This document shows positions 27,220-30,639 of a stretch of 47,595 nt of DNA, one piece after another. The stretch spans positions 1 through 47,595 of the forward strand of contig ONQM01000002.1 in assembly GCA_900319955.1 (NCBI GenBank), written 5' to 3'. Every line of letters starts with the position of its first letter. Positions within the stretch are counted from its first letter, which is position 1. Source of the stretch: an uncultured Eubacteriales bacterium. GTDB taxonomy: Bacteria > Bacillota_I > Bacilli_A > RF39 > UBA660. Below the pieces are notes generated by a model. The model was not told the origin of the DNA, ran no database searches, and saw only the letters and a list, made by a program, of their open reading frames with translations. The translations under genes and the position numbers were made by a program.

Positions 27220-27274
27220 CTTTATGTTTTACTAAAATTTTAAAATATATTATACTATAGCTAGGGTGATATTT

Positions 27275-28102
27275 GTGAATAATAAAGGTAATGTAGAATA
27301 TTTAAAAAGTGCTGGAGTTGATGTTGATCATGGACTTGAGCTTTTAGGTGATATGGAAACTTATAATTCTATTATGGAAGAGTTTTTAGATGCATTTGAT
27401 GATAGAATGAAAAGAATTAATGACTATAAGAATAATGGTGATTTAGAGAATTATCAAATAGAGGTTCATAGTTTAAAAAGTGATTCTAAGTATTTAGGAT
27501 TTATGAATTTAGCTGATATTGCTTATAAGCATGAAATGGCAAGTAAGAATAATGATTCTAATACTATTAATAATACTTATAATGATTTATTAACTGAAGC
27601 TTCTAAAGTTATTAATGTTGTTAAAGCTTATTTAGGTAAGAATAATAGTTCTACAAGTAATAATGATTTAAGTAATGGTAATCAAAATTTTGATAGTACT
27701 GGAAATTCTTCAAAAAAAATTATACTAATTGCAGATGACTCTAGTATAATTAGATCTTTTGTTGAAGAAATATTTAAAGATGAATATGATGTTGTTGGTG
27801 CTAAAACAGGTAGGGAAGTTGCTGATATAGTTGCTAAAAATTTAAATAATATTGCAGTTCTTCTTCTTGATTTAAATATGCCTGATATAAATGGTTTTCA
27901 AGTTCTTGAATGGTTTAAACAAAATGATTTATTTAAAAAAATTCCTGTTTCAGTAATTACTGGAGCAAGTGATAAGACAAGTATTGATAAGGCTTTCACT
28001 TATCCTATATGTGATGTTTTAAATAAACCTTTTGAGAAAGAAACTGTTAAAGATATTGTTGAGAAAACTCTTAACTTTAATAATAATGTAAATGAGGCTT
28101 AA
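27275..28102 (+). CDS. Hpt-REC phosphotransfer protein
   Basis: 275 residues from GTG 27275 behind AGGGTGATATTT. Residues 1-118 form an Hpt domain with phosphoacceptor His65 in VHSLKSDSKYLG. An Asn/Ser-rich linker (about 119-146) leads to a receiver domain with Asp154/Asp155 in IADDSS, phosphoacceptor Asp199 in LLDLNMPD and a Lys in LNKPF. There is no output domain. It therefore looks like a relay part: an Hpt to accept phosphate from the receiver of a hybrid kinase plus a second receiver. The only hybrid kinase in the window is at 39466, a plausible donor by architecture, not by proximity. A TTTTAC/TATACT promoter lies upstream. Confidence 0.88.
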   Translation: MNNKGNVEYLKSAGVDVDHGLELLGDMETYNSIMEEFLDAFDDRMKRINDYKNNGDLENYQIEVHSLKSDSKYLGFMNLADIAYKHEMASKNNDSNTINNTYNDLLTEASKVINVVKAYLGKNNSSTSNNDLSNGNQNFDSTGNSSKKIILIADDSSIIRSFVEEIFKDEYDVVGAKTGREVADIVAKNLNNIAVLLLDLNMPDINGFQVLEWFKQNDLFKKIPVSVITGASDKTSIDKAFTYPICDVLNKPFEKETVKDIVEKTLNFNNNVNEA

Positions 28103-28114
28103 ATGCCTTTTTTT
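28095..28114 (+). terminator. Terminator of the Hpt-REC gene
   Basis: AGGC pairs with GCCT around the stop codon with a T7 run after. The stem is short. Confidence 0.5.
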
Positions 28115-28153
28115 CTTTCAGAATTTCTGATACAATAAATTTGGTGATTATTT

Positions 28154-29158
28154 ATGAATGATGACATAACAGATTTATTTAAGATGAATAGAAAATTAAA
28201 TAGTGAAAGTAAGAATAATAAAGCAGATGATTCTAACTCATTTGATATTAAGAAGAAAAGAATTAGTATTTTAGAAACTTATGGAGAAGAGTTTACTAAG
28301 AAGGAGTATATAACAAATCCTGCAATTGGAAGAGAAAGTGAATTAAAGGAACTTATGCTTATTTTGTTAACGCCAGATAAAAGTGCTATTTTAACTGGTA
28401 AACCTGGTGTTGGTAAAACTGCGATTGTTGAAGGACTTGCTTATTTAATTGAAAGAGGGAAGGTACCTGATGCTCTTAAAAATTACAGAATAATAAAAGT
28501 AAATACTAGTGCACTTTTAGGTATTGATCCTATAACGGGTGAGTCTAAAATACAAAACTTAATTGATGAGTTAAAACTTTATAATAATTTAATATTATTT
28601 ATTGATGAGATTCATACTCTTATGGGAAGTGGAAAAGATGCACTTGATTTTGCAAATATGTTTAAACCTGGTCTTGATAGAGGTGATATTAAAGTAATTG
28701 GTGCAACAACATCAGAAGAATATGAAAGGTATATATTAAGAGATAAAGCTTTTGTAAGACGTTTTCAAAAAATAGATGTTGCGGAACCTACTAGAGAACA
28801 AAACATTGAAATATGTATGGGAACACTTCCTAAGATTGAAAAAAGAACAGGGGTTAAACTTAATTATTCTAATTTTCAAAAGAAGTCTATATGTGAGTTT
28901 TTAACAGATATTACATCTGAGTATAAAAGAATTTATGAAATAGGTTCCAGGTATCCTGATGTTACTTTAACTCTTATTCAAGATGCTTTTAGTAATGCTC
29001 TTTTTGATAATAGAAAGGTTGTTAATATAATGGATTTTAGAAAAGCAATAGAAACTTCTAAAAATATTTATCCTGATATTATAAAGAAAGCTCTTCCTGA
29101 ATTTGACAATAAATTTAGAACAGAAGAGGAAGATGTAAGGTTAAATTCTATAAAATAA
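28154..29158 (+). CDS. Stand-alone Clp/Hsp100 D1-type AAA+ ATPase
   Basis: A 334-residue protein resembling only the first ATPase module of ClpA/ClpB/ClpC. The Clp-like linker YGEEFTKKEYITNPAIGR is followed by Walker A GKPGVGKT (82-89), the pore loop region NTSALLGIDPITGES, Walker B LILFIDE (146-152), a sensor segment VIGATTSEEY and arginine pair FVRRF. The usual N-terminal ClpN repeats, middle coiled coil, second ATPase ring and the ClpP-binding loop are absent. Start ATG 28154 follows GGTGAT with an extended -10 (TGATACAAT). It lies 51 bases after the Hpt-REC gene, with a weak terminator between. A remodelling ATPase with a dedicated substrate is likely; which is unknown. Confidence 0.85.
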   Translation: MNDDITDLFKMNRKLNSESKNNKADDSNSFDIKKKRISILETYGEEFTKKEYITNPAIGRESELKELMLILLTPDKSAILTGKPGVGKTAIVEGLAYLIERGKVPDALKNYRIIKVNTSALLGIDPITGESKIQNLIDELKLYNNLILFIDEIHTLMGSGKDALDFANMFKPGLDRGDIKVIGATTSEEYERYILRDKAFVRRFQKIDVAEPTREQNIEICMGTLPKIEKRTGVKLNYSNFQKKSICEFLTDITSEYKRIYEIGSRYPDVTLTLIQDAFSNALFDNRKVVNIMDFRKAIETSKNIYPDIIKKALPEFDNKFRTEEEDVRLNSIK

Positions 29159-29177: not shown

Positions 29178-29205
29178 TTGACTTTATAAAAAATCTGAGT
29201 AAAAT
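29178..29205 (+). promoter_or_regulatory. Promoter of the structured RNA
   Basis: TTGACT (29178-29183), 16-base spacer, TAAAAT (29200-29205). Predicted start of transcription near 29212. Confidence 0.65.
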
Positions 29206-29211
29206 ATTAAT

Positions 29212-29659
29212 TAAGTATATGATATGTGTTTTGAGTAAGATTAAATTTTTATTTAAGCACTATTTCTTATCTATTTCATATACTAGTATGGTTTGTGAAG
29301 ACGGTAAACTTCATAGTAGAAGATCGTTAGTAATTACCTAGTTGGGTTTTGAGTTTGTTTTGAAGTTTTTCTTTGAAACTTACTTATTACTTTTATCTAG
29401 AACGATTGGTAAACCGGTGTGTATGTTTTCCATACATGCTGAGTGGGAAGGCCTCTCACTTGTATCACTCTTTGTTGCATGTCTAGTATACATGACGTGT
29501 AAGTACCTTAGAATTTAATTATTCTTATTCTACTCAAAAGAGTGCAAATTCATGATTTGATTTTTGAGAAAGTTACTCTGATAAGAAGTTTACATTTACA
29601 TTTTTGTTTATGTGAGCTAAACTGAAAAAGACTGGATTCTTGTAATTTGGTCTTTTTTT
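29212..29659 (+). ncRNA. Unassigned structured non-coding RNA, about 450 nt
   Basis: This gap between the AAA+ gene and the next gene has no reading frame worth calling, yet carries a promoter, dense secondary structure and a terminator. A long-range helix closes the core: TTTTGAGTA (29229-29237) with TACTCAAAA (29531-29539), extended by ATTAAATT (29240-29247) with AATTTAAT (29512-29519). Inside are hairpins such as TGAAG/CTTCA (about 29296-29313), AAGTTT/AAACTT (29362-29381), TGTATG/CATACA (about 29419-29436), GTGGG/CTCAC near 29443-29459 and CATGT/ACATG (29479-29494). A further hairpin, AGTTTA/TAAACT (29587-29623), lies before the terminator. I see no RNase P, tmRNA, SRP, T-box or common riboswitch signature. 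Large ornate RNAs such as ROOL or OLE are possible matches that I cannot confirm by eye. Confidence 0.6.
29625..29659 (+). terminator. Strong terminator of the structured RNA
   Basis: AAAAAGAC pairs with GTCTTTTT (29625-29632 with 29650-29657), continued by six more pairs including wobbles, 5-nt loop, ending in T7. Confidence 0.9.
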
Positions 29660-29754: not shown

Positions 29755-30639
29755 ATGGATAAAAAGAAAAAAAAGAAATTAAAACTAAAGAAATCGATAA
29801 GAGATTTTATATTTAGTAAGAATTTTCTTATTTTGATTGTAATTATTATTGTGTTACTTTTTAGTGTGATGCTTGGTATTTCTTTTGTAAAAAAGGTAAG
29901 TCTTGTTAATAAAGCACCTGATGATGAAAAAAATAATTATGTAGCATATGTAAATGTTGGTACTTTAATAGAAATTGATTTTTCTGAAATATGTAATAAG
30001 ACTGATAGTGGAGCAATTATTGATTGTAATGAGCCAATTGTTTCAAAATATAAGCCTTTGACTGATTCTGCTAAAAATGTTTTTAATGGAACTAATTTAT
30101 TAAATCCTGATAGAGATTTGATGTCTGTTATTACACTTGCTGGAACGACTGCAAAAAGTAAAGGTGTAGTATTTGATAAAGTCTATGTTTATAGCAACTG
30201 GAGTGGAATTAAGAAATATATAGATGATGCTAATACAAATGATATATCATATGAAGTTAATGTTTTAAAGAATAATGATTTGAAAAGTTCCTTAAATAAT
30301 CTTATCTTAGAAAGTACTTATCATACTGTTACATTTGATAGTGACGGTGGAAGCTTTATTGATTCACAAAGTGTCAAACATGGATCTACTGCTGTTCGTC
30401 CTACAAATCCTGTTAAGACAGGATATACATTTGCAGGATGGCAGCTTGATGGAACATCTTTTGATTTTTCGACTCCTATAGATGCTGATATTACTTTAAA
30501 AGCCGTATATAATCAAATTAATGTTAGAAGAAATAGAACTTATACAGTTACAAATAATCAGGTAACGAATGCGCCTGCAGCAGATGATACAAATAATACT
30601 TCTACTACTTCTTCAAATGCTGAAAATAGTGAGCAGTAG
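29755..30639 (+). CDS. Membrane-anchored InlB B-repeat protein
   Basis: 294 residues. A strongly basic start (KKKKKKLKLKKS) precedes one membrane helix (about 22-46), then an extracytoplasmic region (about 47-195) of unknown fold, one Listeria-Bacteroides (InlB B) repeat at about 196-246 (HTVTFDSDGG, HGSTAVRPTNPVKTGYTFAGW) and a Thr/Asn/Ser-rich tail. Such repeats are found in surface proteins and bind other surfaces; the partner is unknown. The TAG stop at 30637-30639 is followed in frame by 12 more sense codons of the same low-complexity style (VPSDNSNENPSA) and a TAA, so the tail was probably longer before a CAG-to-TAG change. Ribosome binding site weak (GGAG, 12 bases away). Confidence 0.8.
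   Translation: MDKKKKKKLKLKKSIRDFIFSKNFLILIVIIIVLLFSVMLGISFVKKVSLVNKAPDDEKNNYVAYVNVGTLIEIDFSEICNKTDSGAIIDCNEPIVSKYKPLTDSAKNVFNGTNLLNPDRDLMSVITLAGTTAKSKGVVFDKVYVYSNWSGIKKYIDDANTNDISYEVNVLKNNDLKSSLNNLILESTYHTVTFDSDGGSFIDSQSVKHGSTAVRPTNPVKTGYTFAGWQLDGTSFDFSTPIDADITLKAVYNQINVRRNRTYTVTNNQVTNAPAADDTNNTSTTSSNAENSEQ

Follow-up and report, generated by a model that had tools for sequence, protein, structure and literature searches.

A fused two-unit relative of PGK RNA as a probable single-chain pseudo-dimer in an uncultured Eubacteriales bacterium

The window, which is the whole stretch of DNA analysed here, spans 47,595 nucleotides of contig ONQM01000002.1 (assembly GCA_900319955.1) from an uncultured Eubacteriales bacterium. 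Between the genes for a 334-aa AAA+ ATPase and for a 294-aa protein (Table 1) lies a gap in which no coding frame of gene length is found from 29178 to 29659, the longest frame being 58 aa, as had been recognized in the initial annotation, where the gap was proposed to hold an independent structured RNA. The independence and structure of this RNA, its promoter and its T7-bearing terminator were borne out by comparison with homologues, while the long-range closing helix assigned to it was not. All six close copies carry an identical TTGACTTT box, followed in each by a TATA-type -10 element, and distant copies have a TTGACA/TATAAT promoter; promoter-like matches are no more frequent in this region of the window than expected by chance, and the evidence for the promoter lies in its conservation. 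The terminator hairpin and its T7 run were not flagged by a simple terminator scan, and a hairpin with a T run occupies the equivalent place in homologues. The minimum free energy computed for the RNA strand is -121.8 kcal/mol, in comparison to -90.6 +/- 5.3 kcal/mol for shuffled sequences, none of 100 of which folded as well. A scan of all 4227 Rfam families gave no match at gathering and only two noise-level matches up to E 5. The models for ROOL, OLE, GOLLD, raiA, 6S and SRP, which had been named initially as a check, did not match, nor did those for RNase P, tmRNA, T-box and riboswitches, and ARAGORN detected no tmRNA in the window, in agreement with the lack of RNase P, tmRNA, SRP, T-box and riboswitch signatures noted previously. 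Because promoter and terminator are conserved, the RNA occurs at several genomic locations and some of its neighbours are convergent, it is likely to be an independent RNA and not a simple leader, as already held; these features support the assignment of 29212-29659 to a stand-alone non-coding RNA gene with its own promoter and terminator.

Upstream of the RNA (27266-29158 of the window), the ATPase, which is short and of Clp type, is preceded by a protein that resembles a response regulator and has an apparent Hpt part. The matching locus of a related genome (G006) contains a prepilin peptidase and secretion-type genes, as read from the proteins.

Table 1. Features of the RNA locus. The p values, from exact permutation of nine sequences taken as exchangeable, are indicative only.
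Feature	Position	Strand	Remarks
AAA+ ATPase gene	28154-29158	+	5' neighbour
Promoter	29178-29205	+	-35 TTGACT, 16-nt spacer, -10 TAAAAT; start expected at about 29212; box kept in all copies
Whole RNA	29212-29659	+	about 448 nt; fold z -5.85; homologues
PK1 5' strand, unit 1, AGTATATGA	29214-29222	+	pairs with 29276-29284; p 0.001, 9 sequences
P1 5' strand, unit 1, ATTTCTTATC	29262-29271	+	pairs with unit 2 3' strand 29580-29589
PK1 3' strand, unit 1, TCATATACT	29276-29284	+	pairs with 29214-29222
D1 strand TATGGTTTGT	29287-29296	+	inter-unit helix with D2, p 0.011; occupies the palindrome position of single-unit RNAs
P2 hairpin, unit 1, GAAG-ACGGTAAA-CTTC	29297-29312	+	matched by the PGK model R2, with a weak score in the window copy
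P1' strand, unit 1, AGTAGAA	29315-29321	+	pairs with unit 2 TTCTACT; p 0.0016
Helix H3 (TCGTT.../...AACGA) with inner CTAG helix	29324-29407	+	TCGTT/AACGA, TTGCT/AGCAA, TTGTT/AACAA and CTGTT/AACAG in copies
GGTAAACC box and hairpin H4	29408-29439	+	may correspond, in unit 1, to the AAACT box and the hairpin of the terminator (putative terminator homology)
Hairpin H5, AGGCC in loop	29441-29461	+	comparison of copies
PK2 5' strand, unit 2, CACTCTTT	29466-29473	+	pairs with PK2 3' strand; p 0.004
Hairpins H7 and H8	29477-29525	+	between PK2 5' strand and P1' 3' strand; fold and copies
P1' strand, unit 2, TTCTACT	29528-29534	+	pairs with AGTAGAA of unit 1
PK2 3' strand, unit 2, AAAGAGTG	29537-29544	+	pairs with PK2 5' strand
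D2 strand GCAAATTCATG	29544-29554	+	pairs with D1
P2 hairpin, unit 2, GAG-AAAGTTA-CTC	29566-29578	+	a pattern built on this hairpin matches only PGK RNAs outside the genus
P1 3' strand, unit 2, GATAAGAAGT	29580-29589	+	pairs with unit 1 P1 5' strand
Hairpin H10	29588-29622	+	fold and copies
TAAACTGAAAA box and terminator	29618-29659	+	terminator-type hairpin and T7 at 29625-29659; AAACT box before the terminator in most copies, all variants
Gene for 294-aa protein	29755-30639	+	3' neighbour

A DNA search revealed three copies of the RNA in the genome of the window (G000), namely the window copy, one that is 82% identical (C19) and a more diverged one (C68), as well as two copies in G006 and one in G005. 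These six copies, designated variant A, share the promoter box and TATA-type -10 element at the start and a hairpin with a T run at the end. A covariance model of the 5' half of the six close copies (R1) gave weak full-length matches in G004, G001 and G007 (E 0.02-0.08). The latter copies, variant B, have a TTGACA/TATAAT promoter and the same order of parts, and share with variant A the GCATATGA/TCATATGC helix and the GAAG/CTTC hairpin; the two variants are also linked by place, since one common gene, for a tRNA methyltransferase (trmL, as read from the protein), adjoins the variant A copy of G005 as well as the variant B copies of G004 and G007. Homologues were thus found in five of the seven other species of the genus examined, G002 and G003 giving no match, and the set used below consists of nine sequences from six species of this one genus. 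A stricter unit 1 pattern matched only members of the genus among 367 genomes, and also misses variant B and two of the window genome's own copies. The large genome searches employed strict filters, and the two-unit form was found in this genus only.

Several candidates from these searches were set aside. A plain DNA search with variant B returned many short matches (E 1e-4 to 1e-8), mostly on the AT-rich terminator side, which were taken as noise; a pattern match in Erysipelatoclostridium An173 (L054) sits in unrelated sequence, and L012 and L022 were rejected as homologues after alignment or reading. Among the surroundings of the copies, a T-box leader (39.5 bits, below gathering; L008:1289-1387, reverse strand) lies before glyS and directly after the RNA copy in G006, and a large divergent gene for an FtsK/EssC-like ATPase, read as type VII secretion, adjoins variant B in G001 and G007 (L062:1846-6519 and L064:560-5146). 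The 5' part of variant B (L062, L063 and L064) contains a long inverted repeat between the PK1 strands, with the nearly invariant loop CATAATTTGATCYA.

The presence of several copies at different places, one of which (C19) is followed by what reads as an IS-like transposase remnant, would suit the RNA of a mobile element copying itself around the genome. This is nevertheless very improbable, as the three loci of the window genome have no flanking gene in common, G000 and G006 share two conserved loci, and viral contigs yielded no match in three pattern scans, a result that diverged phage copies could escape.

Comparison of the nine sequences establishes, as far as covariation can, that five long-range helices (PK1, P1', PK2, D and P1) covary, covariation among homologues being a test proposed initially, and that the P1 and P1' strands are exchanged between two units of the chain. 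P1 changes from CTTATC/GATAAG in variant A to ATTATC/GATAAT in variant B, P1' occurs as AGTAGAA/TTCTACT, AGTAGGA/TCCTACT and AACAGGC/GCCTGTT, and PK2 as CACTCTT/AAGAGTG, CATTCTT/AAGAATG and GTTCTTGG/CCAAGAAC. The D1 and D2 strands read TATGACAAG/CTTGTCATG in a G006 copy (C81) and TTGACATGT/GCATGTCAA in the C68 copy of G000, the D helix being weak in variant B. The unswapped alternative for P1, in which both strands belong to one unit, is weaker in 9/9 sequences. The p values compare native with cross-paired strands and ignore the relatedness of the sequences, so that they are indicative only, and significance is only modest for P1 (p 0.03) and D; earlier strand windows had given p 0.17 for P1 and p 0.02 for D, after which the 5' offset of two sequences was corrected and the windows were narrowed. 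The closing helix proposed initially, TTTTGAGTA (29229-29237) with TACTCAAAA (29531-29539), extended by ATTAAATT with AATTTAAT, is not conserved: the region of its 5' arm is gapped or different in homologues, where TTCTACTAA or TTCTACTTA stands in place of its 3' arm. TTCTACT has its conserved partner instead in the AGTAGAA strand of unit 1.

The link to a known family came from the 3' hairpin common to both variants. A pattern derived from it before any involvement of PGK RNA was known (GAGARAGWTAN{0,2}CTCN{0,8}GATAA) matched 10 of 386 family genomes, seven of them of other genera, its reversed control matching none, and all seven loci of other genera are PGK RNAs (Rfam RF03040) scoring above gathering. 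When 154 family genomes were searched with RF03040 itself, 20 had matches with E no higher than 0.01, 14 of them over the cut-off, and in a class-wide sample matches were confined to this family (5/296). The gathering score of 50.8 bits was reached neither by the window nor by the copies in the genus, and G000 gave no match. A covariance model (R2), built from 30 PGK loci, was run against 148 kb on both strands; the four best of its 40 matches are both units of two variant B RNAs, at the GAAG/CTTC hairpin and the 3' GAG/CTC hairpin, and 11 of the 40 lie inside the nine fused RNAs, where 1.1 would be expected. On the window copy the same model scores poorly (15.8 bits, E 3.5) and in unit 1 only. 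The unit 1 P2 hairpin of variant B in G001 and G007, GAAGAAAGAAAACTTC, is identical to that of the PGK RNAs L088 and L089.

A P1 helix enclosing a P2 hairpin with an A-rich loop, as in PGK RNA, is present in both units of the window RNA, with the P1 strands exchanged between them, and in neither variant A nor variant B is GATAAG followed by the P3 hairpin with its ACTGATAA loop. Unit 1 consists of PK1, the P1 5' strand, D1, P2a and a P1' strand, and unit 2 of PK2, the P1' partner, D2, P2b and the P1 partner. Sequence homology thereby establishes the window RNA as two PGK-like units in one chain, related by descent to Rfam PGK RNA. The initial remark that no family was recognized for it is correct in that no Rfam match rises above noise up to E 5, but gives way to this homology.

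The PGK RNA of Rfam is a 92-nt motif of type Cis-reg, which reportedly stems from the work of Weinberg and colleagues in 2017. When 30 PGK loci were read at full length, 26 were found to start with a promoter (at least 9/12 matches) and most to end in a hairpin with a T run, the automatic end-finder having halted at an earlier T run in several; they are apparently complete transcription units. The first nucleotides after the promoter are predicted to form a 5' pseudoknot with the strand just 3' of CTTATC. In the 26 RNAs that have it, true pairs exceeded cross-RNA pairs in 20,000/20,000 permutations (p < 5e-5), with two-sided changes such as ACTTAG/CTAAGT, GTTTAGAG/CTCTAAAC, ATCTCGG/CCGAGAT and GTATTTTGA/TCAAAATAC. 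P1, P2 and P3 reach a covariation score of 0.413, in comparison to 0.162 when shuffled. The P3 loop is complementary to the terminal region over at least 6 bp in 25/30 loci, mostly as CTGATAA with TTATCAG of the terminator loop, and the complementarity is kept through changes (CTAGTAA/TTACTAG in L093 and TGACT/AGTCA in L095).

The Rfam typing implies a cis-regulatory leader or attenuator, the terminator of which would control the next gene, and many PGK RNAs are indeed codirectional with that gene. The next genes, however, are unrelated as read from their proteins (obgE, metG, murG, hup, spoIVA, aspS and others), and they are convergent at L084, L088, L093, L097, G005 and G007. Phosphoglycerate kinase (pgk) follows at 1/28 loci, L078 in G091. 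The terminator loop belongs to the conserved fold, no anti-terminator alternative was seen, and the loci were not found to hold the position of a cis-regulatory element upstream of a regulated gene, which makes this reading improbable. Given the complementarity between P3 and the terminator loop and the unrelated, partly convergent neighbours, full-length PGK RNA is best regarded as a putative stand-alone RNA that includes its own terminator in its fold. The single locus that precedes phosphoglycerate kinase may explain the name of the family.

The segment between the pseudoknot strand and the conserved hairpin, unpaired in the Rfam model, is a palindrome in the single-unit PGK RNAs. It varies and yet stays self-complementary (ACAATTGT, TAATACGTATTA, ACGCGCGT, AATGTACATT and TATATGATCATATA), the pairing being mirrored about its dyad (p < 5e-5), and its central two pairs, which are impossible within one chain, are kept in 52/60 cases against 35 expected. 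The palindrome can alternatively form a hairpin with a 4-nt loop, for which self-complementarity of the loop would not be required. Because its changes keep it self-complementary, as has been taken for OLE and GOLLD to indicate intermolecular pairing, the single-unit PGK RNA is most likely to be a homodimer held together through the palindrome. About 5/30 single-unit RNAs have no clear palindrome. Three PGK relatives that lack the palindrome, L092, L094 and L097 (in G170, G111 and G166), have CTGTAACC or TTGTAACT at its place and may represent a separate subtype.

When the PGK plan is laid on each half of the window RNA, its long-range helices are explained, and the RNA is probably a fused two-unit PGK relative in which a normally homodimeric RNA has become a domain-swapped pseudo-dimer within a single chain. 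In each unit, following the PGK plan, a 5' strand would form a pseudoknot with the strand just 3' of the P1 5' strand, after which come a dimer strand, an A-rich P2 hairpin and a P1 3' strand. While two molecules of the single-unit RNA would pair at the palindromic dimer strand, in the fused RNA D1 would pair with D2 in its place, the P1 5' strand of unit 1 with the P1 3' strand of unit 2, and the P1 5' strand of unit 2 with the P1 3' strand of unit 1. The resulting dimer would have a pair of pseudoknotted cores and display both P2 hairpins, with their A-rich loops, in a fixed arrangement on an approximately twofold scaffold. The broader proposition, that a natural domain-swapped RNA dimer has arisen here from two copies of a homodimeric RNA within one gene, its palindrome becoming a covarying heteroduplex between the halves, is favoured on balance. 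The fused gene may have originated through a tandem duplication in which the terminator and promoter lying between the copies were lost. In two genomes (L071:1463-1868 in G244 and L086:1501-1906 in G121), two PGK genes occur in tandem at a distance of about 310 nt, both having a terminator of their own, and such pairs are a possible intermediate toward the fused form. As a guess at function, the dimer might be a trans-acting scaffold on which the A-rich P2 loops contact a partner protein or RNA.

Exposed A-rich loops, together with a copy number of one to three and shifting locations, would equally suit a regulatory RNA, and the window RNA might be an expanded trans-acting sRNA that pairs with mRNAs and acquired its second hairpin by convergence or partial duplication, with no pseudo-dimer involved. 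Such an origin seems unlikely, since the order pseudoknot, P1 strand, dimer strand, P2 and P1 strand occurs twice and the exchanged helices covary.

The pseudo-dimer would also inform on its single-unit relatives. It suggests that the ordinary PGK RNA works as a pair of identical RNAs and, although the identical strands of a homodimer would conceal any exchange from sequence comparison, offers a hint that these may exchange P1 strands in the cell. Through fusion, the strands of a palindrome that is ambiguous by itself become distinguishable from each other, and their covariation then reports the strands that meet in the dimer, so that the fused form renders the structure of the single-unit RNA testable. 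If this is true, full-length PGK RNA would be a stand-alone homodimeric RNA and not a cis-regulatory leader, calling its Rfam label into question, and the fused RNA would parallel pseudo-dimeric proteins. RNA homo-oligomers have been recognized only recently, and these RNAs of uncultured gut bacteria, mostly of about 200-450 nt, would be compact candidates for studies of RNA-only dimers.

Among known systems, RF03040 resembles the window RNA in its P1 (CTTATC/GATAAG) and in its P2 hairpin with an A-rich loop, and the full-length PGK loci share with it the promoter, terminator, AAACT box and topology of the 5' strand pseudoknot. In contrast, the Rfam entry covers 92 nt of one unit, whereas the window RNA, which does not match that model, has two units per chain with swapped P1 helices and additional helices H3-H5, H7 and H8, and lacks the P3 loop. 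The tandem PGK genes (L071 and L086/L099) likewise comprise two PGK units, but apparently as separate transcription units. OLE, ROOL and GOLLD are stand-alone homo-oligomeric RNAs; the contact loops of OLE and GOLLD are palindromes that covary as such, which was taken as evidence of intermolecular pairing (PMC12286853); by the same measure the single-unit PGK RNAs, changing yet self-complementary, behave alike, and the fused RNAs have D1 and D2 instead. Membership of the window RNA in these large ornate classes, suggested initially for ROOL or OLE, would agree with the rumen genomes among its relatives, its size, its stand-alone gene and the palindromic contact in its relatives, but already fails on the absence of any Rfam match to them at E up to 1-5 and on the homology to PGK RNA, and is extremely unlikely. 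What the window RNA may have in common with OLE, ROOL and GOLLD is the proposed homo-oligomeric mode, with the distinction that its dimer has apparently been fused into one chain.
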